From: an uncultured Desulfobulbaceae bacterium
GTDB lineage: Bacteria > Desulfobacterota > Desulfobulbia > Desulfobulbales > Desulfocapsaceae
DNA: 44,805 nucleotides
Reading direction: 5' to 3'
Assembly (NCBI GenBank): GCA_903887485.1
Contig: CAISPV010000031.1
Location: 1 to 44,805 of the forward strand
Under the pieces are notes generated by a model, which was given only the letters and a program-made list of their open reading frames with translations, searched no databases and was not told the DNA's origin. The position numbers and the translations under genes were made by a program. Positions 1,344-17,992 of this stretch are shown piece after piece. Each line of letters begins with the position of its first letter. The stretch's first letter is position 1.

Positions 1344-1346
1344 ACC

Positions 1347-1864
1347 ATGAAATTATTTATCCAAGACGAACAAGGACGGTACGTCACTGCGACAACCCCC
1401 GAAATCATCAAAGAGTCCCGTAGTCGTACTCGTTCCACATTGAAAAGAGGATCAGAATTTATCGGAGGGGCACAAGTGGCAAAGGAAGCAATAGCCTCAA
1501 AAATCGCATCCTACCAACATGAGGTCTTTGGTTGTCTGTTTCTGGACACCAAAAACTGCATCCTGGATTGGAAGGAAATGTTCCACGGGACTATTGACTC
1601 ACAACAGGTTACCCTCGTGAAGAGGTCAAGGAAGCCCTGCGGCTCAATGCTTCAAAGGTTATCCTTTTCCACAACCACCCTTCAGGTAATGCTGACCCAT
1701 CACAACCGGACATTGAATTGACCAAAAAACTGAAAGAAATCTTAAAGATCATAGATGTGAAGGTTCTCGACCACATCATCGTAGGGGATGATGTAACGTC
1801 CTTTACGGATAGTTCAGCCGTTGCAGATTGCCATGAAGGCGCTCACTGGTTAGTTGTTCCATGA
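1347..1864 (+). pseudogene. radC: RadC/JAB-domain (JAMM) protein, frameshifted and 3'-fused to IS21 DNA
   Basis: The first frame (from 1347) gives the start of a RadC-type JAB domain (HEVFGCLFLDTKN, then [10 protein letters not shown]). At 1609-1611 one base appears to be missing: restoring it gives [17 protein letters not shown], followed in the +1 frame by the metal-site motif HNHPSG and [16 protein letters not shown]. Read as is, the frame runs out at 1721 without the HNHPSG site, so the product would lack the presumed metallo-isopeptidase/nuclease centre. The restored frame reaches a stop at 1862-1864, but its last 17 or so codons are antisense to istB. The true radC 3' end was therefore lost at a junction near 1803-1812. 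RadC-like JAB proteins are often carried by mobile elements. Family assignment is firm; the frameshift could be real or a sequencing error. Confidence 0.75.
1803..1862 (-). pseudogene. istB: IS21 istB remnant (first 19 codons)
   Basis: An ATG at 1862, preceded by GGAGGTG at a proper distance, opens a frame reading [19 protein letters not shown] and then a stop. This matches the beginning of IstB helper ATPases (ERLxxxLxxLKLP). The AAA+ core (Walker A and B) is entirely missing. It overlaps the end of istA by 13 nt, which supports the assignment. Homology ends where radC-derived sequence begins, so the stop lies at a deletion junction. Confidence 0.7.
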
Positions 1865-3118: not shown

Positions 3119-3167
3119 AATGACCACCTCCTATAAGGACGGTAATCACCACTGACGTTTCAAGGGT

Positions 3168-3217
3168 GGTACATTTCTCATGACCATTTTTGGCACATTA
3201 TGCCATGACTAGCGACA
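3168..3217 (-). repeat. IS21 terminal repeats (left end)
   Basis: On the minus strand, GTCATGGCATAATGTGCC (3209-3192) and GTCATGAGAAATGTACC (3184-3168) are imperfect direct repeats just upstream of istA. Paired terminal repeats of this kind are typical transposase-binding sites of IS21 elements. The outermost base is probably near 3217, where the sequence reads TGTCGCTAG. Confidence 0.6.
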
Positions 3218-3446
3218 AATGCTGCCGACTGTTATCAAGCAGCCTATAACAGGTCCACTTTAAATCGATAAAACTTGTTCAAACAATTTACATCCTTTTC
3301 TTTTTTACATTTTCCTGTAAATATGGAACTAGTTCTGATGCTGATTGTCCCAACGGTCCAGAACATTCCGGATAAATCCACCATCTCTTGCCGGAATCCC
3401 AGATTTTACATTGCCGTTGGTTTCATGGACCTGGAGAGGCGTAACA
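3218..3446. other. Intergenic region between IS21 end and unknown gene
   Basis: An AT-rich stretch with no recognisable gene. It must contain the promoter of the downstream unknown gene; I see no convincing -35/-10 pair. An open frame at 3275-3466 lacks a ribosome binding site and has no protein-like composition. Confidence 0.4.
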
Positions 3447-3485
3447 ATGCTTACTTATTATCTTGAGGCAATTGATGAACGATAA
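3447..3485 (+). CDS. Putative 12-residue leader peptide overlapping the next gene's start
   Basis: ATG at 3447 has a good ribosome binding site (GGAGAGG at 3433-3439, 7 nt upstream) and encodes MLTYYLEAIDER before TAA at 3483-3485. The start codon of the large downstream gene (3475) lies inside this frame, 8 nt before its stop. The arrangement suggests translational coupling: ribosomes finishing the short frame could restart at 3475. Whether the peptide itself has a role is unknown. Confidence 0.4.
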   Translation: MLTYYLEAIDER

Positions 3486-5691
3486 AGATGACAATTTCAA
3501 ACTGGACCAATCGGCCCAGGACCTTTACAAACAGCTGGAAGGTATAGATGAGACCTCCCGGGTAGCTTCTTCACAGTCATCGCTTATTGATCTCCTTAAT
3601 CAGCAGACAAAGCTGCTTGATTATTATCGAATATTGCTGGCCGATGCTACATACCTATTTGCCGGAATTATCAAAAGCAGTTATTCAGCTGCGCCCTCAC
3701 AGGAGATTGATCAGAAAATCCAGGATTTTCTTACATCTCTGAAAAAGATTGCGGAATTCCCGGAATTCAACCGGAAGATATATTGTCGCCTGCGCGGACA
3801 GCAACACACTTCGAACCAGTTGGGTTCCGAGACCTATGACTATGAGTTGTCGTTCAACAACATTCTTCTCGACTGTCAGATGGCCCTGATCATTGAAGAG
3901 AGGGTGAAAACACAAGGCAAAGGTCTTTATATAAAGTTGATGGATGCTTTTCAGTCCTTAAGCGCGATGAATATCTTTAATTTCTCTATCGATACCGGTG
4001 CCGGTGGAGAAGAGGATTATCGTAAGCTAGAGACCACCCTCCGGCTCCTGATCAAATTTTATGAGAACCCTAGTCGGGAAGGATTTGTTGTCTTAGATGA
4101 GTATGGCCAGTCCAGCATTAATCTGACCTTGCTGGCGGCAATGAACAATGTAAAACCCCTCGCCCTCCAGAACCTGGTTGACAAAATTAAACCCTTGATC
4201 CTTGGTCCAACCCCGGATAAGGGTCTTGAGCTTTTCGCAACGGTTTATGATGCGATCTTTGCGTCCATGAATCGGCGCAAGGACATCAAGAAAATTATGA
4301 TTGAGTTTAATAACGCTCAATTGCTTATGAATAATCTGCACACTGACCCCAAGCGCGCGACCGTGGTCGTCCAGATCTCGCGGCTGGTACTGGCCAAATA
4401 TGGTAGTAGCCCTCGAATGGCATCAGAGGTTATGAACAGTATCAATAGTGCCGGTTATATTGATATGCGCCCGGAAGTAATGGGCAGTCGCCTGACCAAG
4501 GCATCGGATTTTCTGGAACTTGCCGAACAAACCGATAATCGGGAAAATTTGCAGAGCGAAGCATTGCGCAACATAGAGAAAGGATTGGATCATCTGCCTG
4601 ATGAAATGTACAATAACATGTCCGTCAAAGGTTCAGAGGCCAGCACTTTCAACATCGAGGGCCAGGAAACAAAGTTTCTCTTGCATGAGAAAATCCTGGA
4701 TTTTCTCATTTTCTTTATCCGCAGATCTTCGATCAAAAAAAAGGTCCAGGATATTACTAATAAAAATGTTTGGTTTGATGATGATGACTATGCGGTTATT
4801 GCCAAGGATTTCGCGATCTCCAAAGAAGATGCGGTTAATTTGATCAGTCTGCTTCGTGACAGTTTTGATTTTAACGGCAATTTCCGCCGGAGCTTCTTTG
4901 AAAAGAATATCCAAGGTTTTGTCAGAAGTGGCAGCAAGGTTTTCGAATTTCTCTGGCATTACCTTAAAGAGCTTCCCTTAAGAAATGATCGGGTCGCCTT
5001 TCTGAATGCGCTCCAAATCCTGGTCGCCCAACTCGAGCAGCCGAAGCTGGCGCTCAACATACTTCTTTCCGATATATTTGACCGTTCGGCAAAAAATGTA
5101 AAGTTCTCCGATCGCAATGCCTTCATTTTGGCAACAGCTCTGTTGTGCTCCAGTAAATCTCCAGGAAGAACTCACATAGAGCTTACCCCTGAAGATGTGC
5201 TGCAGACCAAGGACGATCTTAATCTGGACACGATTTCTGTAGTGCTGGAGTTTTTTGAGCAGCACCATGACAATATCATCCAGAAATTTAGACTGATCAC
5301 CGAACTTCTGCTGACATCATCGGCCAAGGAAAATTTTGCGGAGAACGAAATGCAACCCCGATTTCTCCTCTATCTGATCCGGGAGATGGTGATCTTTTTT
5401 TCCCTGATCGGTGGCAAATCAGCCCACACCATCATCCGTGGGGTTGTTCTGGAGTTCGGCGATCCTTTTTCGGCATATTATAGAGAAATGAAAAACAAGG
5501 AGAACCTGCGGCATTCATTGCAGCTTCTGCAGATCGCCGCCCGCAGTTTGCGAAGGTTTGCAAATCCTCAGGATATGAACCTTCTATGGGAAATCGTCAG
5601 CAACGAAGATGCCTTTGTTAAACTCTATGACGAACCAGATCCGCTCAATCATGTCCAGCGGGTGATGGAGAAGATCAGAAAAGGCGATTGA
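3475..5691 (+). CDS. Large hypothetical cytosolic protein, unrecognised
   Basis: A 739-residue protein with no signal peptide and no transmembrane segment. It is rich in Leu, Asp, Asn and Lys and appears almost wholly alpha-helical, with long amphipathic stretches (for example residues 40-70 and 440-480), consistent with a helical-repeat or scaffold protein. I find no nucleotide-binding loop, metal site or other catalytic motif and do not recognise a family. ATG 3475 is chosen over TTG 3463 because GAGG at 3465-3468 is spaced properly for it. The start is embedded in a 12-codon open frame, suggesting coupled translation. The gene converges on the adenylate cyclase gene with only 77 nt between stops. 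It is long, uninterrupted and codon-biased like its neighbours, so I am confident it is real but not of its role. Confidence 0.75.
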   Translation: MNDKDDNFKLDQSAQDLYKQLEGIDETSRVASSQSSLIDLLNQQTKLLDYYRILLADATYLFAGIIKSSYSAAPSQEIDQKIQDFLTSLKKIAEFPEFNRKIYCRLRGQQHTSNQLGSETYDYELSFNNILLDCQMALIIEERVKTQGKGLYIKLMDAFQSLSAMNIFNFSIDTGAGGEEDYRKLETTLRLLIKFYENPSREGFVVLDEYGQSSINLTLLAAMNNVKPLALQNLVDKIKPLILGPTPDKGLELFATVYDAIFASMNRRKDIKKIMIEFNNAQLLMNNLHTDPKRATVVVQISRLVLAKYGSSPRMASEVMNSINSAGYIDMRPEVMGSRLTKASDFLELAEQTDNRENLQSEALRNIEKGLDHLPDEMYNNMSVKGSEASTFNIEGQETKFLLHEKILDFLIFFIRRSSIKKKVQDITNKNVWFDDDDYAVIAKDFAISKEDAVNLISLLRDSFDFNGNFRRSFFEKNIQGFVRSGSKVFEFLWHYLKELPLRNDRVAFLNALQILVAQLEQPKLALNILLSDIFDRSAKNVKFSDRNAFILATALLCSSKSPGRTHIELTPEDVLQTKDDLNLDTISVVLEFFEQHHDNIIQKFRLITELLLTSSAKENFAENEMQPRFLLYLIREMVIFFSLIGGKSAHTIIRGVVLEFGDPFSAYYREMKNKENLRHSLQLLQIAARSLRRFANPQDMNLLWEIVSNEDAFVKLYDEPDPLNHVQRVMEKIRKGD

Positions 5692-5768
5692 TTGCTTGGC
5701 AATCAGGAAAGTTGCACAGATGCTGATCCGGTTAATAAATGTAATATCGATTTTGATGGCAAAGCACT

Positions 5769-8291
5769 TTATCTTCCCAGCAGTTCGTACACCTTCAGGT
5801 CAGCTATCGTTTTATCTATCTCCCTGATTTCCAAAGGGCTCTGGACGGCACGGATGGTGCTTTCGGACACAAGAACCACGTTGGGCATAGTCTTGGTCAG
5901 ATCCTGCAGCCGGAAGACATTATTTACGGAATCTCCGATAACCGTATAGTCCATTTTCATTTCAAAACCGATATTCCCGACCACCACCTCACCGGTAAAG
6001 ATACTGACCCCGATATAGACCGGATCGTCGAGGATCGCCTTCAGGTAATCTTCGTTTAATGACTCGATGGCGTACTGCATTTCAAGTGCCGCCGAGACAG
6101 CGTTCTCCGCGTCCATTGTCGTTGAGACCGGGGCGCCGAACAAGGCCAGAAAGCCGTCGCCAAGATATTTGTCGACAATGCCATGATGTTTAAAAACGAT
6201 GCCTCCCATGATTGAGAAGAACTGGTTCAGCAGGGCGACACTTTTGATAGGGCCAATTTTTTTGGTGAGCTTCGAGAAGTTACGGATATCCAAATTGAGC
6301 AGGGTGATGGTCTTGAACTCGTCAACAATCTTCCGTTTAATCGTGGTCCCGTGGATTATTTTGTCGATCACCTCTTTGGGAACAAATTTCTGGAAGACGC
6401 CCCGGATGCCCCTTTCTTGTTCGGCCATTAAAACGGTCTCTTTGTAAAGACGGGCGTTTTCCATGGCAATGCTTACCGAGGTGGCGATCGATTGCAGAAG
6501 ATCCTTGTCCCCTTCAGTGAAATTGCCATCCTGTTTGTTGAGGACCTCGATCACCCCGATCACCTTGCCTTGTGAGATCATCGGCACACAGAGGACGGAA
6601 CGGGTTTTGAACCCGGTTGCATTGTCTATTTCCGGGTGAAAATAGCTTGAACAAAAGACATCATTTTCAACGATCGGCTTGCCGAGGGCGGCCACCGATC
6701 CAGAAATACCCTGGCCCAATTTCAGGCGGAATTTTTTTAGCTGGGTAACATCAATGTCAAAGGCAACGGCAAATTCAAGCTGATCGTCTTTAACAAGAGA
6801 CAGGGATCCCGCCTCAACATTCATCAAGGTCCGGATCATGTCCATGGTGTATTTGAGAACCTTGTTTATGTCAAAGGTTGAGCTGGCAAGGGCGCTGCCG
6901 ATCTGTTTAATTGTCTCCAGCTCCTGGTTTCTCTTGACGACTGAGGTTGCCAGTCGACCTTTATCAATAGTAAAGGAAACAATGTTGGCAATGGAATCAA
7001 TTAGTTCCTGGCAATCATGAAATGGTTTGCTGTCTTTGGCATAGAAAATTATACTGCCGTTGATATCGCCGTGCACGGTTAAGGGGACCACAAGACACGA
7101 TTTCAGGCCGTGATTGACAAACAACTTTTTGTCCATGCCGGGTGCCGCCGGATCAATTACATCAATTATCCGGCAGGACCCCTGATTAATGGATTTTTCA
7201 ATCATCCCTCCCTTGATAGTAAACTTGTCGCCGATGGATATGTCCGAAATTTTGCTCGAAATTATGTCGGTTACGGAAAGGTAATCGTTTTTTGCATTTT
7301 CCCGGGTCATAACCAGGGCAAACTCAAAGGGGAGAATATTCTGAACCTCATTAAGAACGGTGTGTAACAATTCGCTGCCCTTGAGGCTGGAGTTCAAAAC
7401 CGTGAATATTTTCTTGAAGGCCGCCATCTGCCGACTTTCCAGCTCTGTTTCGCTCATGAGACGAATATTTTCAAAAGTGAAGGCTGCATTGCTTAAAAGT
7501 GGTGACAGGGATTCGATATCCATTTCGGAAAAAATCTTGTTGTCATCTTTACAGGAAATCGTCAGTACCCCGATAACTTCCTTGATGGTTTTGATTGGCA
7601 TGACTATGAAGGATTTTGTTCCGTAATGTATTCGGTTGGTCCGCCCGAAACGTCTTTCTTCCTCTATGTCTTCGATGATTAAGGGTGTTTTGTTAATGAC
7701 TGCATATTTGGCGATTGACGTTTCAAAATCTATCTTGTCGTCTATTCGGATATGGTCACCGAGACCGATGCTGGCCTTGACCGTAAAATGCTTTGGTACC
7801 GACTTGCCGAGGATCATGATTGAGCCGACATCGGCGTCTGTCAGGAGCAAGGCACGCTCAAGGGTGACATGAAGGATTTCCCAGGGGTCGCGGGTTCCAT
7901 AACACAAGTCGGATAATTCTTTTAGTATCGATACTTCCGAGGACTTTTTGGCAAGTTGCACGGAATTTAGACGTAATTTACCTTCAACGACGTTGAATGA
8001 CTGGATGATTTGTTGTAATTCGTTTTGGTTTTCGTCCACTACCCCGGGTAATAAATCTTTGGCTATCTTAGCCTTGATGTTTTTCGATATATTGATAATG
8101 TTATCAAACAATCTTCGGAGCAGGGTGAAGCCGACAAAGATATAAACAAGGCCGATCACGATAAAAATTTTGATATAATTGTCGTGCAGTAAATTGTCTT
8201 TATATCCTAAGTACAGGAAGCCGGAACAGGGGAAAAGAAGCAGGAGAATGAAAATTATATTGAGTATATAGTAAAGGCGATTGTTATTCAT
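5769..8291 (-). CDS. Membrane-anchored GAF-domain class III adenylate cyclase
   Basis: An 840-residue sensor cyclase predicted to make cAMP from ATP. Two membrane helices lie near residues 7-30 and 40-60 with a very short outside loop, followed by a linker helix and three GAF-type modules (about 130-290, 305-460 and 480-640) that probably bind small ligands. The C-terminal class III cyclase domain (about 656-840) has the metal-binding aspartates Asp668 (LNLDIRNFS) and Asp712 (YLGDGF), the adenine-specifying Lys708 and Asp781 (MDYTVIGD), and the transition-state Asn790 and Arg794 (VNNVFR), so it should be active. The start at 8291 places the first membrane helix at the N-terminus; an in-frame start at 8381 would add 30 basic/hydrophobic residues. 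No strong ribosome binding site helps decide. The gene converges with the unknown 739-residue gene. Confidence 0.88.
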   Translation of the reverse strand: MNNNRLYYILNIIFILLLLFPCSGFLYLGYKDNLLHDNYIKIFIVIGLVYIFVGFTLLRRLFDNIINISKNIKAKIAKDLLPGVVDENQNELQQIIQSFNVVEGKLRLNSVQLAKKSSEVSILKELSDLCYGTRDPWEILHVTLERALLLTDADVGSIMILGKSVPKHFTVKASIGLGDHIRIDDKIDFETSIAKYAVINKTPLIIEDIEEERRFGRTNRIHYGTKSFIVMPIKTIKEVIGVLTISCKDDNKIFSEMDIESLSPLLSNAAFTFENIRLMSETELESRQMAAFKKIFTVLNSSLKGSELLHTVLNEVQNILPFEFALVMTRENAKNDYLSVTDIISSKISDISIGDKFTIKGGMIEKSINQGSCRIIDVIDPAAPGMDKKLFVNHGLKSCLVVPLTVHGDINGSIIFYAKDSKPFHDCQELIDSIANIVSFTIDKGRLATSVVKRNQELETIKQIGSALASSTFDINKVLKYTMDMIRTLMNVEAGSLSLVKDDQLEFAVAFDIDVTQLKKFRLKLGQGISGSVAALGKPIVENDVFCSSYFHPEIDNATGFKTRSVLCVPMISQGKVIGVIEVLNKQDGNFTEGDKDLLQSIATSVSIAMENARLYKETVLMAEQERGIRGVFQKFVPKEVIDKIIHGTTIKRKIVDEFKTITLLNLDIRNFSKLTKKIGPIKSVALLNQFFSIMGGIVFKHHGIVDKYLGDGFLALFGAPVSTTMDAENAVSAALEMQYAIESLNEDYLKAILDDPVYIGVSIFTGEVVVGNIGFEMKMDYTVIGDSVNNVFRLQDLTKTMPNVVLVSESTIRAVQSPLEIREIDKTIADLKVYELLGR

Positions 8292-8381
8292 AATGGTTAT
8301 TTTACCCAAAAAAGATAAGATGATAAGAATTCGCCTTCTTAGGAAAGCTAAAAGATAGGACCGCGCCCCGAGATTGCCCAT

Positions 8382-8589
8382 TTCTTCAGTCCATATACTT
8401 ATTTTCCCGCGAAAATCCGGGAATATTCAAAATTCTGTGTCACGGCTTACGCTTCTCATAACTACCACCCAAGTGAGCGGAAGCAGAAGTCAGTTCCGAG
8501 AATGGGCCTAAAATCATGCTCGTCGGAGGAGCTGGTTTTTGCTGGAGCCGCTTTATGAGAATCATCCTTTTCATCAGTCAATAAACTTA
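8382..8589. other. Intergenic region with hairpin upstream of the cyclase gene
   Basis: No gene seen. A hairpin, TTCCCG/CGGGAA with an 8-nt loop, lies at 8404-8423. The rest may contain the deleted transposon's right end and the cyclase promoter; neither can be fixed from sequence alone. Confidence 0.3.
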
Positions 8590-9120
8590 TCAGAGTTTCA
8601 ACTCTTTATCCAGCATTCCTTCAAAGAATATTGCCAACTGAGAAATTATCACGGACCAGTTTTTGATCGGCATCGTCCATTTCTTGCTGGTATTCTGAAT
8701 TCCCAAACAGAGTAATTTAAACAGGGATACTTGAAATACTGACTGAGTTATTGGGGAATTACCAGGCTCTATCGATGCGGCCTCGGTTGTGGAACAACAA
8801 GGCGAGTTGTCAATATTCTGTTGATCGTCCGCGCGTGAACCGGAGTTTACAACTGGCGGAGTGGGTTTCTCGTTAGCGTCCGCCTTCTTTTTGCGAGACT
8901 TTTCGATCTCGGCAAGTTTCGCGGTCTCAAAGGCATCAAACACTTCGCTGCCTATGCGACGACGAATCTCAACAACAAACAGACTTGGGGCAAAGGCCGG
9001 TTCTTCCCAGGGTATTCGACGACTCAATAGCACCCAGCAATTCTTCGGGCTCAGCTTTCCGACAAATGTCAGGATAAAACCTTCCAGGGACAACTGCCGT
9101 TCACTTGTATATCGAATCAT
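8590..9120 (-). pseudogene. IS1182-type (IS5-like DDE) transposase, internally deleted
   Basis: A 176-residue frame whose two ends match one transposase family while the middle is missing. The N-terminus (MIRYTSERQLSLEGF, then GKLSPKNCW and RRIPWEE) is the standard start of this type, and the C-terminus (NWSVIISQLAIFFEGMLDKEL) is its standard end. The region between is short, Ser/Thr/Pro/Asn-rich and partly out of register, and the DDE catalytic segments of a normal protein of about 450-550 residues are absent. It cannot be an active transposase. The frame remaining open across the deletion is probably chance or recent loss. Confidence 0.7.
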
Positions 9121-9229
9121 GTGCAGGCCTTTTATAGGGTTTGTTTGAAATTACTTGCACACACCACCATCTTCTTTGTTATTTTTCTCTACAATTCCAA
9201 GCAATTGAGATTTACCAAGGAGAATCTAA

Positions 9230-9646
9230 TTACTCTCCAATTATTTTCACCAACACCCTTTTCTTTCGCCCTCCATCAAACTCACCATAGAATATCTGCT
9301 CCCATGTCCCAAAATCAAGCTGACCATCGGTCACAGCAACAACAACCTCTCGTCCCATGACTTGCCGTTTCAAATGGGCATCTGCGTTATCTTCACCAAC
9401 ATTATGACGATATTGACTGACAGGCTCGTGGGGAGCTAACTTCTCCAGCCAAACCTCATAATCATAATGCAAACCGGATTCATCGTCATTGATAAAGACC
9501 GATGCTGTGATGTGCATGGCATTCACAAGTATCAACCCCTCGGATATCCCACTTTCATGTAAACATTCCTGAACTTGAGAGGTAATGTTAATAAATGCTC
9601 TCCGTGTTGGCACATTGAACCACAATTCTTTACGATAAGATTTCAT
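9230..9646 (-). CDS. yjbQ: YjbQ/UPF0047 family protein
   Basis: A 138-residue full-length member of the YjbQ (UPF0047) family, small trimeric beta-rich proteins reported to have weak thiamine-phosphate synthase activity but whose main role is unsettled. Family motifs are clear: [15 protein letters not shown], then [14 protein letters not shown] with its conserved His/Glu/Asp residues, then [16 protein letters not shown] near the C-terminus. The ATG at 9646 follows GAGGTGG at good spacing; a GTG nine bases upstream would sit inside that site. It is the last gene before a decayed transposase and lies on the same strand as the amidoligase operon, 72 nt after its final gene, so co-transcription is possible. 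Confidence 0.92.
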
Positions 9647-9718: not shown

Positions 9719-10444
9719 TCACTTGTTCTGCATCTGCAGAACCTCCACAAAACTCTCCAGCAGTTGGTGTTGTAATCTCAGCCAGTCCGCCTTCCTGTCA
9801 AGCGGGTAGATCTGGTTTATTTCCAGCTCGACGCCCAGATAGCGCTGCGCCGGGAATTTTTTGCGCAAGGCGGTGACCAATCCGTCGCTGGTTCCCCGAT
9901 AGGGATAATTGCTCCGCAAGCGCCATCTTCCATCTCTGGCAGCCAGAGCGGCGCGCCATTCCCCACAAAACTCTTTTTCCTTGGCGCGGTCTGGATCATA
10001 GAGAAAACCGATATCCGCTGTTCTGTGGACACCATCCAGCACCGGGGTAAAAGAATGGATGGACAGATGGAGAACGGTTTTCTCTTGTCGCAGATTGCCT
10101 TCAATGGCCTCTTCGACCTGGCGACGATAGGGAAGATAATAACGGGCCAGGATTTCTTCTTTCAAGGCAAGGGGCAGATCGCTTCTGGGCCGTATCGGCG
10201 GCGAGCGGTGATTGGCAGGAGAACGATTCAGATCCACCAACAGGCGGGAGACGGTGCCGGCAAAGAGAGGAGCTGAAAGCCTGACGGCCAGCAGGCGCGC
10301 AAAATCGAGGGCACCAGGGTCATATCCCTGATGGGTATTGAGCCGGTCGATCTCCTCCGCAAGAAGGTTGCGGTATTGGTCCGGAAGATGATTAGTTGCG
10401 TGTTCGCAACTGAAAATGAGAGTCGGGGTTCTCTGTCTGGTCAT
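9719..10444 (-). CDS. N-formylglutamate amidohydrolase-like hydrolase
   Basis: A 241-residue protein of the N-formylglutamate amidohydrolase (FGase) family, zinc-dependent hydrolases that cleave acyl-amide bonds. Visible motifs are SCEHATNHLP with Glu14 and His15, LVDLNRSP near residue 70, LHLSIHSFTP with His126 and His130, and VELEINQ near the C-terminus, all in family order. It is the last gene of a four-gene set; its ATG overlaps the stop of the GCS2-like ligase by one base (TAATG), so the two are probably translated together. In this setting it more likely trims a product of the two upstream ligases, or recycles it, than degrades histidine: no hut genes are nearby. Confidence 0.88.
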   Translation of the reverse strand: MTRQRTPTLIFSCEHATNHLPDQYRNLLAEEIDRLNTHQGYDPGALDFARLLAVRLSAPLFAGTVSRLLVDLNRSPANHRSPPIRPRSDLPLALKEEILARYYLPYRRQVEEAIEGNLRQEKTVLHLSIHSFTPVLDGVHRTADIGFLYDPDRAKEKEFCGEWRAALAARDGRWRLRSNYPYRGTSDGLVTALRKKFPAQRYLGVELEINQIYPLDRKADWLRLQHQLLESFVEVLQMQNK

Positions 10445-11730
10445 TATGAAGGACGTTCCATCATGGATAGAGGTGAGCTGACAATCTCTTCATCCGTGAA
10501 CATGACGCCTTGGGCCAGGCAGTCGCAAAGCCGGCCATACACCCGACTCAGGGCGGGTCGGGACAGGTCATTATCAATATGCCTCACGATCCGGCTGGCC
10601 AACGTGCCCTGTTGGGTAATAATGTGCAGCGGTTCAAGAAAAACCTCCGGCAGGGGATACCGGCTTTTTATTTCCTGCAGGATATGACACCAGAGATCTC
10701 CGGCCGTCATCTCTCCTTTCTTCCGCAGTCCAAAGATATTTAGATAGTCACCATTGCTGATCGTGTTCTTCTCCGCGCTCTTGATAGTCTTGAAAAGGAT
10801 CTCCGCCAGTCCATCAGTCCGCCACTGTTGCAAGCATGCAGGGTCGGACCACAGGCCGTCCACCAGTGCCCGCAGGGTATTGATGATCAACGAGGCAACG
10901 GCCAGATCGGCCAGGGGACATTCCTGCACATCAAGGATGCGGATCTCAATGGCGGAACGATCAAAACGGGCAATGGCACCCCTGGCATTGAGCCATTCAT
11001 TCTGCAGAACAGTATCCGGGTCATGCGGCCTGATGTCGCGATAGATGCGCTGGAAGATCCGGGTATCATAATCCGCACGGGTGAAAACAGCCTCAGGGAT
11101 CACCTCCCCGGTCAAGGAGGGAATTTTTGAGGAATTGGTCCGGTAGACCTCCATCCGATAATCGAGAAAATCCTGTAGGCGCCCATCGACAATGGGGGTG
11201 CTGGCAGCCAGTGCCGGTAAAATTGGCAGCAACACGCGGATAGCGGCGTGGAGTCGGCCGAACTCTTCGTCGCCTGCAAAGGGCAGGTTGAGATGGGCGC
11301 TCTGCAGATTAGACCAGCCGTGGCCGCGGCAGTCGAATATTTTATTATAGGCCTCGTAGATGGCGCTGTAATGGTGGGGCCAGATCCTGGTTTCCCGGAA
11401 GGGATCCATCCAGGGATGGGCGCCGCTGGGCATGAGCCGGGCATTAAAATCCTTGAGGATGGTATTGATCAGCCCCACATCCTGCTGAAAAAGGCTGATG
11501 AAATCAGCAAGGGACGGGGTCGGTTCGCCGGTTTTCAACTCAATGACATGCAGGGCCAGTTCGTTGGACCAGCAGACGCCGGGCTTGTTGTAAGTTTCAT
11601 TATAGGAACCAGTGACCGCCTTCAACACCTCATCGGTGAGAGGCTTCACATCAAGGGTATCGGCATCGACGATCATATATTCCAGCTCGACGCCGGCGCC
11701 GCCAAAGAGATGTAAGGGCTTACTTGTCAT
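10444..11730 (-). CDS. GCS2-type carboxylate-amine ligase (glutamate-cysteine ligase family 2)
   Basis: A 428-residue member of the GCS2/YbdK superfamily, glutamine-synthetase-fold enzymes that join the carboxylate of an amino acid (often Glu) to an amine with ATP. The N-terminal strand GAGVELEYMIVD carries the metal-binding acidic pair, WSNELALHVIELKTGEP follows with the next Glu residues, SAHLNLPF supplies the usual His, and DRSAIEIRILDVQECP is the conserved late Arg/Glu segment. The fold looks complete. The start overlaps the RimK-like gene's stop by four bases (ATGA). GCS2 proteins can make gamma-glutamyl-cysteine, but many cluster with other amide-forming enzymes and have unknown substrates. 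The neighbours argue for such a special role here. Confidence 0.88.
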   Translation of the reverse strand: MTSKPLHLFGGAGVELEYMIVDADTLDVKPLTDEVLKAVTGSYNETYNKPGVCWSNELALHVIELKTGEPTPSLADFISLFQQDVGLINTILKDFNARLMPSGAHPWMDPFRETRIWPHHYSAIYEAYNKIFDCRGHGWSNLQSAHLNLPFAGDEEFGRLHAAIRVLLPILPALAASTPIVDGRLQDFLDYRMEVYRTNSSKIPSLTGEVIPEAVFTRADYDTRIFQRIYRDIRPHDPDTVLQNEWLNARGAIARFDRSAIEIRILDVQECPLADLAVASLIINTLRALVDGLWSDPACLQQWRTDGLAEILFKTIKSAEKNTISNGDYLNIFGLRKKGEMTAGDLWCHILQEIKSRYPLPEVFLEPLHIITQQGTLASRIVRHIDNDLSRPALSRVYGRLCDCLAQGVMFTDEEIVSSPLSMMERPS

Positions 11731-13196
11731 CCCTGGTCATGCAGCCTCTTTCTGCGTTCAATGCGGGCCAGAAATGATGCCATCACTGTGGCGTACAGTT
11801 CATCTTTCAAACACGCGTCCTCATTGCCGGCATCGAGATTGGGATTGTCATTGATCTCAATCAGATACACCTTGTTGTTGATCTCCTTGAGGTCCACTCC
11901 GTAGAGGCCGTCGCCGATGAGATTGGCCGCTTTGACGGCGGTGCTGATCACCTTTTCCGGCACATCCTCCAGGCGCAAAGTTTCGCAATTGCCCTCTTTC
12001 TTGGTGCCGTCGGCAGCCCGCTGGATAATCTGCCAGTGGTCATTGGCCATGAAATATTTGCAGGCGAAAAGCGGTTTTTTGTCCAGCACCCCGATGCGCC
12101 AGTCAAAGGGAGTGGGCAGGAACTGCTGGGCAATGATCAGTTCTGAATCATTGAGCAGCTCCCGGCCATGGCCCATGAGCTCTTCCCCGGTTTTTACCAT
12201 CTTGACCCCCTGGGAAAACGAGCTGTCAGGCTTTTTGAGGATGCAGGGCAGGCCAAGTTCCTGTTCAACCCGGGCCAGGTTGTCGCGGTGCACGATCATG
12301 GTCTTCGGCGTGGGGATTTTGTGTCGTTCAAAGAGCTCGGCCAGAAAAACCTTGTTGGTGCAGCGCAGGATGGATTCGGGATCATCGAGCACCACCAGAC
12401 CTTCAGCAGCGGCCCGCCGGGCGAACCTGTAGGTGTGATGATTGACGTTGGTGGTCTCCCGGATAAAGAGGGCATCAAACTCGGAAAGCCGGCCATAATC
12501 CTCCTTCCTGATCAGCTCCGCTTCAATACTCAAGGCCGCGGCGGCCTTGATGAATTTTTTCAGGGCCCGTTCATTGGAGGGCGCGTCTTTTTCTTCCGGG
12601 TTGTGGAGAATGGCCAGATCGAAACGGTTGTCGCTTTTTCTGGGCATCGTATAATGCTGTCTGGCAAAAAAGAGAGCGGCCACCTCCATGACAAAGGGCA
12701 GGTGGCTGTCTGGAATGTCGTTGCCGGCAATGGGCGAGATATTCTGGAGGATCCATTTTTTATGAAAGACAAAATCCGCCCTGAGGAAAGGCGCGTAAAA
12801 CATGTTGAAGAGCCGGGAGCTCAGGCGATCATAGCGTTTGGCCAGATTCTTGCCGAAATAGATGGAAAGAACAAAGCGATCCGACTGGAGCGGGGCCAGG
12901 CTGCTCTGGATCAGATCATCGAGGTCGGCAGAGACGAAGCGGATGATGGCGGCCAGTTTCATATCCTGAATGGTCCAGATCGACGGAATGGGCTTGTGGC
13001 CCCTGGCCTCGGCGAGCAGAGAGACATAATAGCCGGTGGCCTGATAACGGTACGACTTGCACAGATTGAAGACGGTGGTGCGGCGCAGGGTATGAAAATA
13101 GGGATCGGTCAGGTAGGAGCGGGCTGAAATAATTTCGACACCTTGGAGATCCAGGGGCCAGATCCTGGGGTTGTCGACCACGACCAGGGTGCTCAT
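11727..13196 (-). CDS. RLAN-domain RimK-like ATP-grasp ligase
   Basis: A 489-residue ATP-grasp amidoligase. The first roughly 200 residues match the RimK-associated N-terminal (RLAN) domain (LVVVDNPRIWPL, then TGYYVSLLAEARGHKPIPS and an IYFGKNLAKRYDRLS segment). The ATP-grasp core occupies about 290-475: PCILKKPDSSFSQGV holds the phosphate-binding Lys, DWRIGVL a conserved Arg, and YLIEINDNPNLDAG the magnesium-binding Glu and Asn. Relatives of this fold add amino acids, often glutamate, to peptides, proteins or small acids. Four-base ATGA overlaps join it to the genes on both sides, so it forms the centre of a tight operon. No substrate can be read from the sequence. A soluble cytoplasmic location is expected, as no signal or membrane segment is present. 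Confidence 0.92.
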   Translation of the reverse strand: MSTLVVVDNPRIWPLDLQGVEIISARSYLTDPYFHTLRRTTVFNLCKSYRYQATGYYVSLLAEARGHKPIPSIWTIQDMKLAAIIRFVSADLDDLIQSSLAPLQSDRFVLSIYFGKNLAKRYDRLSSRLFNMFYAPFLRADFVFHKKWILQNISPIAGNDIPDSHLPFVMEVAALFFARQHYTMPRKSDNRFDLAILHNPEEKDAPSNERALKKFIKAAAALSIEAELIRKEDYGRLSEFDALFIRETTNVNHHTYRFARRAAAEGLVVLDDPESILRCTNKVFLAELFERHKIPTPKTMIVHRDNLARVEQELGLPCILKKPDSSFSQGVKMVKTGEELMGHGRELLNDSELIIAQQFLPTPFDWRIGVLDKKPLFACKYFMANDHWQIIQRAADGTKKEGNCETLRLEDVPEKVISTAVKAANLIGDGLYGVDLKEINNKVYLIEINDNPNLDAGNEDACLKDELYATVMASFLARIERRKRLHDQG

Positions 13197-13915
13197 GTTA
13201 CCTCCTTGACCACAGGAGATGCAGATTCAATGATCAGCAGATTGGCATCGTAGGTAAGGATACCCAGCAGAATGGAACCGACAAGACGATCGATATCAAC
13301 CTCGTATAACTGGCCTTTTCCCGAAGGATGCTTCAGGGGGTCGGCAACGAAGACATGGCGGTTATTGAGATCATAGCCGCAAAGAATCACAAAATGGCCG
13401 GTTGGTTCTCCCCGGATATCATCAGAGTCAAGGGTGGGGCCGAACTCACGGGCGCAATGATAGAGATAGGTGGAGGAAAGCCCGCACAGAATAGGTTTAT
13501 GCTGTTTAAGGTATTTGCGCAGAAGGGCGGTGGTAAGGTCCTGGAATCGCAGCCTGCCGCCCAGAGCCAGAAACTCCAGATAGGCCCTGGTGGCAACCTT
13601 CAGTTTTTTATTGGTCTTGGCCTTGATCTGCTGCCGGAGCTTGGCACTGAGATCGATGCCGGGATTTTCAAACCAGGTGGGATCAAAGACCTGCAGATTG
13701 TAGGTGTAAATCGTGGCGCGGTAACCGCGCCGTAAGGCATGACAGGCAAGGAGGACTTCCAGGGTGCCGCCTCCTTCAAGCGGATGGGCCTCGGAGACAA
13801 CCTGTGTCAATGAAATATCATCGCCATAATAGCGGTAGACAGCATGCAGACAGGTGGGGCCGCAGGTTGTGTCATCAGGTTGCAAGAGTATGTCCAGTGC
13901 AAAACGGGATTCCAT
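13193..13915 (-). CDS. C39-like papain-fold peptidase
   Basis: A 240-residue cysteine peptidase-like protein that opens the operon. Gln12 and Cys18 in LLQPDDTTCGPTC, His174 in TGHFVILCGYD and Asp192 in VFVADP form the C39-type oxyanion/catalytic set in the right order, so activity is likely. Unlike bacteriocin-export C39 domains it is not fused to an ABC transporter, and it has no signal peptide. The start is ATG 13915 because AGGAG lies 7 nt upstream; an upstream TTG at 13936 would place that site inside the gene. Its TGA overlaps the ligase ATG by four bases. It may mature a small peptide, cut a ligase product or remove a tag. No precursor-peptide gene is obvious next to it, apart from the weak frame at 13980-14150 on the other strand. 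Confidence 0.87.
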   Translation of the reverse strand: MESRFALDILLQPDDTTCGPTCLHAVYRYYGDDISLTQVVSEAHPLEGGGTLEVLLACHALRRGYRATIYTYNLQVFDPTWFENPGIDLSAKLRQQIKAKTNKKLKVATRAYLEFLALGGRLRFQDLTTALLRKYLKQHKPILCGLSSTYLYHCAREFGPTLDSDDIRGEPTGHFVILCGYDLNNRHVFVADPLKHPSGKGQLYEVDIDRLVGSILLGILTYDANLLIIESASPVVKEVT

Positions 13916-14152: not shown

Positions 14153-16591
14153 TTACTCAAGGGAAATAATCTGATCCGTTACTTCCGTGAATGCAACATC
14201 GTGGCTGATGAGAAAAAGCTGGTCGTACCAGTGTTCGGTCACCTCTTCGCGGCCGACGTCAATAGCCCGGAAGGCATGGGCCAGATTGGCACGGCGCGCC
14301 GCATCCAGGTTGGAAGTCGGCTCATCAAAGAAGGCCACCCTGGCGCCGATGGTCTGCAGCAAGGCCAAACGCAGGGCAACCACGGCGCTCATGGTCTGGC
14401 CGCCGGAGAGCTGGTCATCGCTGCGCTCCCTGAGCGCCCCATTCTCCATGTCGCGCAGCACAATCTGATATTTATCGCCCCAGTAAAGCTCTTCATCGGT
14501 TTCGGCGATGTTGCGGTAGATAAGGTCCGCCCGCAGACTTATCTCTTCGCGGAAACGCTCGGAGAGCTGGGCCGAAACATTGTTGAAGATCTGGTTCCGT
14601 AAAAATTTAACCAGCTCCTCTTTGTCGGCAAGACCTTTCCTGGCAGCCAAGCGGGCCTTGATCTCTTCCCTGATCTGCTTCATTATTTTGATCTCTTCGA
14701 CAAGGCGGAGGCGATCCTTGCCGAGATCAGCAATCTTCTGCCTGCCGGTGGCAAGCTCTGCTACCAACTGTTCTTTGCCCAGGCGCACCTCAGCGTGGCG
14801 CCTGGGATCATAATCCTGGGCCAGGGTGCCAAGCTCTTGCCCTTTGGCCGTCAGGATCTTTCGCAAATCCACCAACAGCGCCACCATCCTGGCCAGGGAA
14901 TCGCGGCAGATTTGCAGATCAAGGGCGTCTTTCTGATTGGCAAAGAAGGCATCCCGGGCGACCTGATGTTCCATCCGTAATTTTTCGATCGTTGCTATTT
15001 CGTTATCAAGATTGCTGAACTTCTGGAGCTCTTCCTTGCGGGCCCCACTCCTTTTCTCGGCCTCTTCCTGTTGTTTTCTGATACCGTCCAGGGCACCCTG
15101 GCGTTTGGTGTTATCGTCGCGCCGCCTGGCCAGGGCGCTGAGCTGTTTTGCCAGTTCCTGTGCTCGAACCGCAAGTGAATCCAACTCCTGCCTGGCCTTC
15201 TCGGCCACGGCGATCTCCCGGCCCAACGCGGCCAGACGCTGCTCCAAATCAAGACCTTCTTTGTCCAGTTCCTCCACCCTGGCGCTGAAAACATCGCGCG
15301 GCGCCTTACCGGCAATGTTTTGGCACGGTTCCTTGAAAAACGGGCAAACCCCTTCGGCCAATTTTTCTTTCCCTTCCTGCAGGCCTCCCCGCCGCCCCTC
15401 AAGAAGCCCTTGCGCCAGGCGTAGTTTCTCCGTCTCTGTTCTGAGGACCGGCAAGCGGGCCGCCGCTATGGTTACACTCTCCCCGGCGACAAGTCCCTTT
15501 TGCTCGGCAATGAACCGAAGTTCTTCTACCGTCAGCTCTTTGTCGATCTTTTCGACTTCACGCCTTTCGTATGCATAGGCCTGGGCCAGACGGGCACTTT
15601 CTTTATCCAGAGCAATGAGCTCCTGCTCAATTGCCCTTCGCTGCTTCTCCTGCTCCCGCAGGGCCTTGAGCTGCACCTCAGCCGCCGTAAACGCCTCCTT
15701 GCCGGCCCGGCTCTTTTCCAGGATTTCCAGGGCCTGTTCGGCCTCTTGCACCCTTTTCTGGTTATCGACGATCTTCCCTTCTCCATCGCGGATCCGATTT
15801 TCCAGCACCTGGATATCAACCTTCACCGCCTGAGTCGTCTTTTCCTGACCATCGAGTTTGGCAAGTTGCGCCTCGGTTGCGCCTAAACTCTTTTCCTTGT
15901 CCGCCAACAACTTCTGCCGGGCTTCCACCTCTGCAACCAGGCCGGTTAACTCTTTTTCCCGTTCAGGCAGGGCAACAATCTGTTCCTCTTTGCCCTCGAT
16001 CTCCACCGTCAAGAGATCGATCTTGCTTTTCACGGCCTTGAGCAGGGTGCTGGTGCCTTTATACGTTTTGCGCCAGGCATCGATGCCGAGGATCTCGTCA
16101 AAGGCCTCCTGCCGCTTGGCCGGCTGCTTGAGGACAAAAGGTCCCAGAAATTCGTTCTGAAAGGGGCCGATCACCAGTTTAAATTGATCAGCCAGGGGCC
16201 GGCCGCCATCGAGCCCAAGCAATTCCTTGATTCGGGCCTCCGTTTCCGGGGCGCCGGCATGGTCCTCAACCTCGAAGATGCCGCCGATCTCCCGGGCCAG
16301 CAACCACTTGGAACCGGCCCCGACCGTGCGGAAGGCCCGATAGGTGTCGCCATCACCGGGGGCAAAGGTGACGGCGATTTCACCCTTCTTGGCCCCGATG
16401 GTAATGAAACGCTCGATGTTGCCGACAAAGTCACGGGCATCGACACCGAACAAGGCGTAGCCAATGGCCTCAAAGATCGTGCTCTTGCCCACCCCGTTGA
16501 CCCCGGACAGAACGTTGATGCCGCCCACAAAATGGAGTTCCTTGTCGCGATGCGATTTGATATTTTTGAGCGAGATAGAGAGGATCTGCAT
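14153..16591 (-). CDS. sbcC: SbcC-type exonuclease ATPase subunit (Rad50-like)
   Basis: An 812-residue SMC-like ATPase, partner of the SbcD nuclease in trimming and opening DNA ends and hairpins. The N-terminal Walker A (GVNGVGKST, residues 30-38) and the C-terminal signature LSGGQ (728-732), Walker B with Asp756/Glu757 (FFDEPTSNLD) and switch His797 form the ATPase head. Two long coiled coils rich in Lys, Glu, Ala and Arg (about 180-410 and 430-660) join at a hook holding Cys416 and Cys423 as CPFFKEPC. The spacing is C-x6-C rather than the usual C-x2-C. The protein is shorter than E. coli SbcC (about 1,050), mainly in the coiled coil. It begins 3 nt after the sbcD stop, so the two are translated from one message. 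Confidence 0.93.
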   Translation of the reverse strand: MQILSISLKNIKSHRDKELHFVGGINVLSGVNGVGKSTIFEAIGYALFGVDARDFVGNIERFITIGAKKGEIAVTFAPGDGDTYRAFRTVGAGSKWLLAREIGGIFEVEDHAGAPETEARIKELLGLDGGRPLADQFKLVIGPFQNEFLGPFVLKQPAKRQEAFDEILGIDAWRKTYKGTSTLLKAVKSKIDLLTVEIEGKEEQIVALPEREKELTGLVAEVEARQKLLADKEKSLGATEAQLAKLDGQEKTTQAVKVDIQVLENRIRDGEGKIVDNQKRVQEAEQALEILEKSRAGKEAFTAAEVQLKALREQEKQRRAIEQELIALDKESARLAQAYAYERREVEKIDKELTVEELRFIAEQKGLVAGESVTIAAARLPVLRTETEKLRLAQGLLEGRRGGLQEGKEKLAEGVCPFFKEPCQNIAGKAPRDVFSARVEELDKEGLDLEQRLAALGREIAVAEKARQELDSLAVRAQELAKQLSALARRRDDNTKRQGALDGIRKQQEEAEKRSGARKEELQKFSNLDNEIATIEKLRMEHQVARDAFFANQKDALDLQICRDSLARMVALLVDLRKILTAKGQELGTLAQDYDPRRHAEVRLGKEQLVAELATGRQKIADLGKDRLRLVEEIKIMKQIREEIKARLAARKGLADKEELVKFLRNQIFNNVSAQLSERFREEISLRADLIYRNIAETDEELYWGDKYQIVLRDMENGALRERSDDQLSGGQTMSAVVALRLALLQTIGARVAFFDEPTSNLDAARRANLAHAFRAIDVGREEVTEHWYDQLFLISHDVAFTEVTDQIISLE

Positions 16592-16594
16592 GGC

Positions 16595-17839
16595 CTACAC
16601 CTGCTCCCCGAAAAGGCCGAGCAATTCGTCATCTTCGACCTCTCCCTTCATCACCAGATCACGAATAGCCAGCGACAGCTTGGCCAACTCCTCTTCCCGC
16701 CCCTGGTATTTGCTGTGAGCGCCGATCAATTCATGGAGCACATCGCTCTCGATCTCGGCAAGCGACTTCTTAATCACCTCTTCGCCACCGGACCGCGCCA
16801 ACAACGAAAGGTGATTTTTTATTTCGACGTACAAGGGTACTGCCAACTCCTCAATGGCCAGCCGTAACCGTTCACGGCCCAGCTCAAAGGGATGGAAGCC
16901 GACCCGTCCGGCCAGTTTCAGCTCCAGCAGGGGTGCGCGCGCATCGGTCAGTCCGGCCAGCCTGGCCGTTATTTGTTCACGGAACCGGGCCAGGGCGGAA
17001 TCCGCATCTATTGCCCCGTCCAGATTAATGACCTCAACCAGCATCGGCCGGGGATCGGTTGGCCTGAATTCCGGGGCAAACCGGCCATCCGCAACAGTCA
17101 CAAAATAGTAGCCTTTCTCATACTTTTCCTCACCAAAGTTGACCCGTTCCGGGGCGCCGGGGTTGTAGGCGTAAGGCCTGCCTGCCGGGGTCTCGATCAC
17201 GTATTGCTTGTGGCCGTGACCGAGGGCGACATACCCGAACTTTTCGGCCAGGGGATGGGCCTCTTCGATCTTCATGTTGCCGATCTCAACCGGCGAATAC
17301 TTCCAGATGCCGACATGAAAAATCAGCAGATTATTGGCAGTGGTCACCGCCTCACAGATGCGCTCGACATGGCTTCCGGCCTGGGCGCCGATATAGCCGA
17401 GGCCGTAGATATTCAGGCCGCCGATCTCAATATGGCCGCCCTCCCCGGTCTCTTCATTGAAGGCGGCAAAGCAATATCCGCCCTCTGCGGTCCGGGCCGG
17501 GCGCAGCAGGCGGATATAGCCCATTGCGGAAAGGGCCTCCATCCACGAGATATTGTTGCGCCGGTGAATCCAGTCATGATTGCCTTCGATAGCAATACAG
17601 GGGATGCCCGCTTCTTTCAGGGGATGCAGGATTTCGATGGTTTTGGCAAAGGTCTTGGGCAGGATCTGGCCGGTGTGAAAGAGATCCCCGCCGATCACTA
17701 CAAAGTCAACAGATTCGCGAACAGCATCTCCGACAATGCCCGACAGGCAGCGAAAGAAATCCTGGTATCGTTCCGCTTCCCCTGAAGAGTTGCGGTAGGT
17801 TTTACCGAGGTGGATGTCAGCGGTATGAATGAATTTCAT
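16595..17839 (-). CDS. sbcD: SbcD-type nuclease subunit (Mre11-like)
   Basis: A 414-residue metallophosphoesterase, the nuclease half of the SbcCD complex. The five phosphoesterase motifs are present in order: HTADIHLG (Asp8, His10), IGGDLFH, EGNHDW, FHVG, and GHGHK. A C-terminal region (about 280-414) should contact the SbcC coiled-coil base. The start is set at 17839 because family proteins begin at the residue just before this first strand; ATG 17848 three codons upstream is nearly as good, and neither has a strong ribosome binding site. The frame stays open far upstream, but that stretch overlaps the leader of kup and lacks protein character. It is divergent from kup with about 150 nt between them. 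Confidence 0.93.
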   Translation of the reverse strand: MKFIHTADIHLGKTYRNSSGEAERYQDFFRCLSGIVGDAVRESVDFVVIGGDLFHTGQILPKTFAKTIEILHPLKEAGIPCIAIEGNHDWIHRRNNISWMEALSAMGYIRLLRPARTAEGGYCFAAFNEETGEGGHIEIGGLNIYGLGYIGAQAGSHVERICEAVTTANNLLIFHVGIWKYSPVEIGNMKIEEAHPLAEKFGYVALGHGHKQYVIETPAGRPYAYNPGAPERVNFGEEKYEKGYYFVTVADGRFAPEFRPTDPRPMLVEVINLDGAIDADSALARFREQITARLAGLTDARAPLLELKLAGRVGFHPFELGRERLRLAIEELAVPLYVEIKNHLSLLARSGGEEVIKKSLAEIESDVLHELIGAHSKYQGREEELAKLSLAIRDLVMKGEVEDDELLGLFGEQV

Positions 17840-17992
17840 TTTGTTCATCAATTCACAATACAATATGATCGGACTCCCTTGCAATATGATGTGACCAAGA
17901 AAGAGGCCACTGAGCCGGCCCAGTTTTCTATTGCTCTTTTGTGGATAATCACCAATAATGCCGATTATTATTACATAAAGGAGAAATATGGC

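Follow-up and report, generated by a model that had tools for sequence, protein, structure and literature searches.

An operon pairing RLAN/ATP-grasp and GCS2-type ligases with two hydrolases, with gene order kept in at least ten phylum-level groups of bacteria

Gene organization and protein families

The window examined here is the whole 44,805 nucleotide (nt) stretch of contig CAISPV010000031.1 (assembly GCA_903887485.1) from an uncultured Desulfobulbaceae bacterium. It has an operon of four minus-strand genes that extends from position 13915 to position 9719. The first gene (positions 13193–13915) encodes a C39-like (papain-fold) cysteine peptidase of 240 amino acids (aa). The second (positions 11727–13196; 489 aa) encodes a protein with an RLAN domain at about residues 25–170 and a LysX/ArgX/RimK-type ATP-grasp ligase at about residues 190–485. 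The third (positions 10444–11730; 428 aa) encodes a GCS2-type carboxylate-amine ligase. The fourth (positions 9719–10444; 241 aa) encodes an N-formylglutamate-amidohydrolase-like hydrolase (FGase), which is optional among relatives. Successive genes overlap by 4, 4 and 1 bases. These overlaps and coordinates had been given in an earlier reading made without database searches (the sequence-only reading) and are confirmed by the open reading frames (ORFs). For the C39 gene the ATG start at 13915 is preferred over a longer alternative, TTG at 13936, because AGGAG sits just upstream of the ATG.

The same reading had proposed that two amide-forming families are paired here with two amide-cleaving families, and Pfam confirms each of them. 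The peptidase matches PF13529 Peptidase_C39_2 (6e-11) and the second protein matches both PF14401 RLAN (7.7e-45; 152.7 bits, cut-off 25) and PF08443 RimK (3.3e-8; 33.8 bits, cut-off 21). The third matches PF04107 (2.2e-29; 103.2 bits, cut-off 21) and the fourth PF05013 (1.8e-24; 87.6 bits). The RLAN domain itself is already described, as the Pfam family carries its name.

Residues expected at the active sites are conserved in all four proteins. The alignments contain the window's own protein plus 53 of 78 listed sequences for C39, 59 of 99 for RLAN/ATP-grasp, 57 of 78 for GCS2 and 40 of 45 for FGase, pieces under length limits having been dropped before these alignments and before the distance correlation described below. 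In the peptidase the catalytic set Cys18, His174 and Asp192 is exact, as first read, and Gln12 is also present. Among 54 rows, 53 have Cys18 and one has a gap; His174 and Asp192 are present in 54/54 each, and there is one gap row at Gln12. The Lys and Glu/Asn sites of the ATP-grasp domain, also described earlier as intact, are invariant (K282, K321, E447 and N449 in 60/60 rows). E15, E17, R258 and E262 of the GCS2 protein are kept in all 58 rows, with H146 replaced by Gln in two and R264 by Lys in one. In the FGase, E14, H15, H38 and H130 are kept in 41/41 rows and C13 differs in two.

None of the four proteins reaches the cut-off of any NCBIfam model. The ATP-grasp domain scores best with LysX_arch (70.6 bits) and the RimK family (64.2 bits), both under cut-off, and lower with two glutathione synthetase models (36.8 and 18.3 bits). 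With the S6 ligase model NF007764 the score is 14.7 bits (cut-off 331) and with the cyanophycin synthetase model TIGR02068 it is 12 bits (cut-off 850). Among gshA/YbdK-type models the GCS2 protein scores best with TIGR02050 (53 bits, cut-off 176.4), and it has 32.4 bits with TIGR02048 (cut-off 249.05). The FGase has 17.5 bits with the hutG equivalog model (cut-off 278.75). By these models the ATP-grasp protein does not look like a plain S6 modifier, nor the GCS2 protein like a plain gamma-glutamylcysteine synthase, two identities on which the sequence-only reading would have fallen; plain HutG is likewise disfavoured.

The Pfam-level names alone would point to ordinary housekeeping neighbours (an S6 modifier, gamma-glutamylcysteine synthetase and HutG), or else to a graspetide cluster with a C39 leader peptidase. 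Either origin is highly improbable. The housekeeping identities are contradicted by these scores far under the cut-offs and by the exclusive co-occurrence of GCS2 with RLAN described below. A graspetide cluster is contradicted by the lack of a conserved precursor-like ORF nearby and by the peptidase, which is a stand-alone protein with only C39-type Pfam matches and no ABC exporter domain or transporter part. Its profile does match peptidase domains of ComA-type transporters in the PDB (best 1.7e-6), but the missing ABC domain disfavours a bacteriocin C39 transporter.

Cyanophycin synthetase bears on a further explanation, in which both ligases would elongate a non-ribosomal polyamide in the style of poly-glutamate or cyanophycin, as a storage or osmotic polymer, and the hydrolases would mobilize it. 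The pairing of synthesis and degradation enzymes fits such a polymer, and PMC12239564 describes RimK-type enzymes that can elongate repeatedly to form poly-alpha-glutamate. The 12 bits of 850 with TIGR02068 argue against it, as does the lack of any partner gene with a constant position next to the operon, and we consider it very unlikely.

Structural relationships of the two ligases

The AlphaFold2 model of the RLAN/ATP-grasp protein has a mean predicted local distance difference test score (pLDDT) of 88.8. Its best solved folds are LysX, ArgX and RimK, with Z-scores of 28.0–26.4 and root-mean-square deviations of 2.2–3.0 Å over 260–272 residues, followed by D-Ala-D-Ala ligases (best Z 23.9) and glutathione synthetase (22.3). 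These matches span residues 187–485, outside the RLAN part. A profile search of the PDB with RLAN gave no match at E ≤ 1e-10, the best being 1.3e-9. The ATP-grasp fold is thus like that of the LysX/ArgX-LysW and RimK systems, and an invariant HW pair in the operon protein aligns with HW of LysX (3vpd). Unlike those systems, the operon protein has the additional RLAN domain and usually has GCS2 or GNAT partners.

The GCS2 model has a mean pLDDT of 94.2. Its best solved folds are YbdK and the Salmonella homologue of YbdK, then plant glutamate-cysteine ligase and, more weakly, the Pup ligase PafA, the depupylase Dop and glutamine synthetase. The similarity in fold is high (TM-score 0.83 normalized to 1tt4), and the motifs G-E-L-E and E-R-D align with those of YbdK and the plant ligase. 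However, identity to the YbdK-type and plant ligases is only 12–15%, and searching the PDB with just the GCS2 sequence gave no useful match. The operon GCS2 represents a subfamily of its own, which in the genomes searched was never seen without RLAN next to it.

Of the two hydrolases, the FGase profile matches 2odf (Atu2144) in the PDB with an E-value of 2.4e-37 and, weakly, the N-formylglutamate amidohydrolase 2q7s (1.1e-4). Two other loci have a possible replacement of the operon FGase. A divergent FGase-family enzyme directly follows GCS2 in L068 (positions 11707–12504), which suggests that the FGase activity may have been recruited twice. An AstE/AspA-type deacylase gene lies just after GCS2 in L077 (positions 11738–12862, minus strand), in convergent orientation.

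Conservation of gene order

A genome collection was scanned with the RLAN alignment, and gene order was counted in the best 80 of at least 585 confirmed relatives. As the best of a longer list, these 80 named loci favour the class with GCS2. Phylum-level group labels were taken from the submitters' record titles, many of which belong to metagenome bins. The nearest named relative by RLAN protein among the matches listed is from a Desulfobulbaceae bacterium (L047), with 90% identity.

GCS2 is found just downstream of RLAN (within 600 bases) in 70 of the 80 loci, from 13 phylum-level groups, and C39 just upstream, within the same distance, in 66. The order C39-RLAN-GCS2 is present in 62 loci and 12 groups. 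All four genes, C39-RLAN-GCS2-FGase, are present on one strand and in one order in 41/80 loci representing 10 groups, which bears out the co-occurrence in other genomes that had been expected. A further 16 loci have C39-RLAN-GCS2 with no FGase next to them and five have these three genes and then the contig end. The remainder are RLAN-GCS2 only (6/80), RLAN-GCS2-FGase without C39 (2/80), C39-RLAN without GCS2 (2/80), C39-RLAN at a contig end (2/80) and RLAN with none of these partners (6/80). Seven of the 80 loci in all end at a contig edge, five before FGase and two before GCS2.

The genes are also closely packed. Overlap or abutment is found for RLAN-GCS2 in 60/84 loci, for C39-RLAN in 37/80 and for GCS2-FGase in 34/51, where the start codon nearest to the previous stop was taken, so that short gaps are favoured. 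There is no in-frame fusion of neighbouring genes among 100 loci. A gene split in two pieces is seen in each of L040, L047, L089, L102 and L189. In L040 (positions 5208–8661) RLAN and FGase are split and in L189 (positions 833–3531) RLAN and GCS2, through decay or sequencing error. In a 9-kb record labelled as a Legionella adelaidensis plasmid (L128, positions 1–3714), RLAN-GCS2-FGase adjoins dapF and fur, so this record may be a piece of chromosome and not a plasmid.

Pairwise distances of the four proteins correlate with each other (Mantel r 0.54–0.73; maxima of 0.17–0.26 in 999 permutations), a correlation that was run without a control gene and that is also expected from shared descent alone. 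A quick tree of the 80 RLAN proteins has 26 label changes for 14 groups, compared with a minimum of 13 and a shuffled mean of 48.5. By this tree the RLAN proteins are clustered by phylum, though not strictly, which is no proof of transfer. Two of the loci, L033 and L052, are the same contig, judged by length and match, and both are inside the pooled spacing, distance and small-ORF counts; L059/L140 and L084/L168 each represent one genome twice.

Co-occurrence in sampled genomes and neighbouring genes

Genomes from three phyla were searched for RLAN and for the GCS2 subfamily. Of the 395 genomes from the window's phylum, 17 have RLAN and 14 have the GCS2 subfamily, at 564–621 bits and in every case beside RLAN; the next best match to the GCS2 profile in any genome has 46 bits. 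The three RLAN genomes without GCS2 (G123, G151 and G186) have a GNAT gene beside RLAN instead. Of the 247 genomes from the Pontibacter phylum, 22 have the subfamily (21 at 550–618 bits, one in two pieces; next 31 bits), with RLAN beside GCS2 in 22/22 and FGase in 15/22. The 398 genomes from the Thiobacillus phylum include just one with it, at 594 bits (next 36) and beside RLAN (L140). In the three samples together the GCS2 subfamily is thus beside RLAN in 37 of 37 genomes (1,040 sampled). The converse fails: RLAN is present in 72 of the 398 genomes of the phylum of Thiobacillus, and almost none of these has this GCS2. The operon-type FGase is present in 15 of 27 RLAN genomes, and by its coordinates it is always at the operon. 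In the window's own genus RLAN is present in 8 of 17 genomes, including the window's own; three of those without it are 55–63% complete. The recurrence of the gene order across phyla, together with the restriction of the GCS2 subfamily to RLAN loci in the genomes sampled, shows that the operon is beyond chance.

The surroundings of the operon are not empty, but no carrier, precursor or partner was found at a fixed place beside it in the loci and genomes searched. Neighbour families were collected from 5 kb upstream to 7 kb downstream of RLAN. The largest is present in 15/100 loci at scattered distances and on both strands, and the only family at a fixed place beside RLAN is GNAT (6 loci of 100). 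No small ORF (15–90 aa, within about 600–700 nt of the operon) is conserved, the largest family being present in only 3/84 loci. The statement in the sequence-only reading that no transporter or precursor gene is attached stands for a conserved small ORF and for a transporter at a fixed place; it must be qualified for transporters generally, since an ABC-transporter-like family, named by eye, is found in 6/100 loci at scattered places. A cluster for a graspetide or other ribosomally synthesized and post-translationally modified peptide is disfavoured by the lack of a conserved precursor-like ORF in these 84 loci, a search made beside the operon only.

A pathway like that of glutathione is a further candidate, with three fold classes that match it. 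GCS2 would be an analogue of GshA and the ATP-grasp protein of GshB, and C39 would act like phytochelatin synthase, which is a papain-like enzyme according to PMC10318531; the product would be a glutathione-like thiol of low molecular weight or a tripeptide that binds metals. The niche is free in the window's genome, as the operon GCS2 is the sole PF04107 match there and no GSH-S_ATP (GshB) match is found at E ≤ 0.001. However, Thiobacillus thioparus (G427) and two Nitrosomonas genomes (G433 and G434) have a GshB-type match of 241–255 bits besides the operon, so the product is not glutathione in these bacteria. Six more of 35 RLAN genomes have weaker but clear GshB-type matches (128–183 bits). 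The ATP-grasp domain also scores higher with LysX/RimK-family models than with glutathione synthetase models. A product of this kind is unlikely.

The GNAT class and phage-like contigs

The RLAN loci without GCS2 commonly have an acyltransferase-type partner of the GNAT family. In Pseudomonadota the best-scoring 30 of 75 matches, from 72 of 398 genomes, were examined over about 1.5 kb on each side. GNAT is present within this distance in 28 of the 30, and 23 of these 28 also have DUF3335, a C39-like domain. Of the other two loci, L140 belongs to the GCS2 class and L134 has neither GNAT nor GCS2. In the window's phylum GNAT is present in all five loci without C39 and GCS2, and DUF3335 in none of them. 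Among the named loci without GCS2 and away from a contig end, GNAT is found in 4/8 and is absent from L051, L069, L095 and L121. Four GCS2-class loci have a GNAT match. Three of these matches are over 1 kb away from the operon; the fourth (L053) is weak (51 bits) and about 0.4 kb upstream on the opposite strand.

The DUF3335 domain can be aligned with the operon C39 protein over 194 residues at 22% identity (E 0.007), with the Cys, His and Asp in register. GNAT-DUF3335 proteins have an RLAN/ATP-grasp partner in common with the window operon; their loci differ in that GNAT is present in place of GCS2 and that the genes are often divergently transcribed. The fusion of GNAT and DUF3335 has already been noted in PMC10318531, and it is suggested there that these GNATs might be peptide ligases or acetylases. 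From the gene arrangements, the RLAN ligase appears to be the constant part, usually with a papain-fold enzyme, and GCS2 or GNAT to occupy a variable slot. GCS2 and GNAT, although unrelated to each other, each modify an amine, and our central inference is that this slot looks like one for N-capping.

Six IMG/VR contigs, of which L163 and L164 look alike, also encode proteins related to the ATP-grasp half. The five longest matches cover only about residues 180–480, and the RLAN part is not seen. In two of the five contigs examined, a set that excludes L164, a GNAT gene is directly upstream of the ATP-grasp gene and overlaps it by 16–20 bases (L162, positions 4535–5942, and L166, positions 4555–5867). 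The ATP-grasp gene is alone between terminase and portal genes in L163, and an integrase is nearby in L166. These contigs are from uncultivated sources and some may be pieces of prophages. Named phage records gave weak and partial matches at 23–27% identity (3 and 2 records), and a PHROGs search with the four operon proteins gave one weak match, for P0003. As a candidate function, anti-phage defence was rejected, as none of the four proteins matches PADLOC at E ≤ 0.001.

Reversible protein tagging

The strongest rival to the explanation favoured below is reversible tagging of a host protein. Its strength lies in the phage-like pairs and in the nearest structural relatives, which modify the C-termini of proteins. 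The RLAN/ATP-grasp ligase would add amino acids to a C-terminal or side-chain Glu, GCS2 would form a gamma-glutamyl bond that branches or caps this tag, and removal of the tag would fall to C39 and FGase. The closest solved folds, LysX/ArgX, which act on the carrier protein LysW, and RimK, which acts on S6, are consistent with this function, as are the weaker resemblance of GCS2 to PafA and Dop and the two phage-like contigs with ligase and GNAT. The S6 protein of the window's host ends in ...DDINSSDE, an acidic tail with a terminal Glu, which does not in itself imply modification.

Several observations argue against tagging. No target or carrier gene is at a fixed place by the operon. LysW was not found above the TIGR01206 cut-off (53.2 bits) in any of 22 genomes, the best scores being 23.7 bits (G412) and, in the window's genome, 17.9 bits for a match in a 423-aa frame; divergent LysW carriers could be missed, since a control search exceeded the cut-off in only 3 of 14 genomes. 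A LysW-type carrier pathway is accordingly disfavoured. The patchy presence of RLAN within one genus (8/17 genomes, some incomplete) would be odd for the modification of a core protein, and the GCS2 enzymes with established functions are known to work on small molecules. Tagging is possible but, on balance, rather doubtful.

Proposed function of the operon

The explanation we tentatively favour, at somewhat less than an even chance, is that the operon represents a self-contained cytosolic cassette that makes and recycles a short N-blocked peptide of two to a few residues. We infer the reactions from the chemistry of the families, together with their order, the substrate, the cytosolic place and the small size of the product. 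With ATP, GCS2 would attach glutamate through its gamma-carboxyl, or some comparable acid, to the amino group of a single amino acid or short peptide. This step would both extend and cap the acceptor; in the sister systems GNAT would provide the cap with an acyl group. The RLAN/ATP-grasp protein, also with ATP, would activate a free carboxylate of the GCS2 intermediate, or of a glutamate-ended acceptor, and add an amino acid; this role is assigned to it as LysX, ArgX and RimK join amino acids. The C39-like cysteine peptidase would cleave the peptide bond of the product. The FGase-like hydrolase would take off the N-cap, so that the product could be recovered once unwanted, and its optional presence places it in turnover and not in synthesis.

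A known system with similar logic is the synthesis of the osmolyte N-acetylglutaminylglutamine amide (NAGGN), in which an acetyltransferase, an ATP-grasp ligase and a peptidase produce an N-capped dipeptide. The cap-ligase-peptidase arrangement is like that of the GNAT class of RLAN loci. The present operon differs in that the cap enzyme is GCS2 and in that its ATP-grasp protein has an RLAN domain but lacks GNAT. An asparagine-synthetase-like amidotransferase is not among the recurrent neighbours printed, which carry no library annotation, and no search was aimed at that family.

There are points that weigh against a small capped peptide. The nearest solved relatives of the ATP-grasp protein act on the C-termini of proteins (LysW and ribosomal S6), which favours a protein target, and papain folds can also be transpeptidases. 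Protein modification would account for the phage-like ATP-grasp contigs, two of them with GNAT, more readily than a host metabolite would. If the GNATs fused to DUF3335 were peptide ligases, a possibility raised in PMC10318531, the idea of a cap would be weakened. FGase and C39 are absent from some loci, so the symmetry of making and breaking is not universal. L042, L051 and L121 have C39-RLAN without GCS2, and a search of the genome of L042 (G414) found no GCS2 match anywhere. There are also RLAN genes with none of the partners (L127, L069, L095 and L134). The first of these, on a Pseudomonas aeruginosa plasmid record (L127, positions 7902–9491), is an RLAN/ATP-grasp gene with no GCS2, C39 or GNAT match in a 17-kb stretch; nearby are genes for an amino-acid ABC transporter, a gamma-glutamyltransferase and an asparaginase.

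A broader proposal, which is speculative and on present evidence more apt to fail than to hold, is that RLAN/ATP-grasp loci represent one widespread class of systems for intracellular N-capped peptides. Gamma-glutamyl capping by GCS2 and acyl capping by GNAT would be interchangeable, FGase would remove the caps and C39 or DUF3335 would cleave the peptides. Some phages would carry the bare pair of cap enzyme and ligase to make the product or to interfere with it.

The sequence-only reading had suggested a short peptide, an amidated metabolite or an amino-acid tag on a protein, and this interpretation is partly supported. A system of this kind was probably foreseen in outline in 2009. Iyer, Abhiman, Burroughs and Aravind are said to have linked amidoligases of the ATP-grasp and glutamine-synthetase folds with peptidases of unrelated folds, and reportedly predicted peptide synthesis or tagging for such neighbourhoods. 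In the open-licence literature searched, judged mostly from titles and the openings of abstracts, no description of the operon or its product was recognized, and we know of no product for this unit. The unit must nevertheless make something worth keeping, because its order is kept in at least ten phylum-level groups, its catalytic residues are intact and this GCS2 was seen nowhere but beside RLAN in the 1,040 sampled genomes. It is compact and cloneable, with two ligases, two hydrolases and no membrane protein or precursor. If the product were a small capped peptide, it would join a short list of intracellular peptide metabolites such as glutathione and NAGGN; if it were a protein tag, a novel type of reversible modification would be added. 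In both cases the GNAT class would become easier to interpret, given the 72 of 398 genomes in the phylum of Thiobacillus that have RLAN, almost none with this GCS2.

Other features of the window

A YjbQ (UPF0047) gene at positions 9646–9230 on the minus strand is 72 bases downstream of the FGase gene and has its own ribosome-binding site. YjbQ also lies upstream of the operon, about 1.6 kb away, in a genome of the same genus (L035). It is found in no other of 100 loci and was rejected as a fifth member of the operon because of this presence in only 1/100 loci. Upstream of C39 there is a gap of 237 bases, followed by same-strand ORFs at positions 14153–18028 that are sbcC/sbcD-like by eye. Scans of the window gave 12 promoter matches, compared with 4.2 in shuffled sequences, and 11 terminator matches, compared with 4.8; none of these is on the minus strand within the gap upstream of C39. 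An Rfam scan of the window found no element above the gathering score.

The G+C content is about 44–46% in the first 10 kb of the window and about 51–62% in the remainder (to position 44805). This change in composition is located close to the 3' end of the operon, and a transposase/integrase-type ORF is present at positions 1850–3127 in the low-G+C part. The left side of the window may be acquired DNA. Three ORFs, at positions 3463–5691 (plus strand; 742 aa), 31243–31962 (plus strand; 239 aa) and 41323–42228 (minus strand; 301 aa), have no Pfam match at E ≤ 1e-5. At positions 28535–30968, following genes for an HlyD-type protein and an ABC ATPase, there is a tandem pair of MacB/FtsX-type permease genes (401 and 399 aa) that are alike in domain layout.

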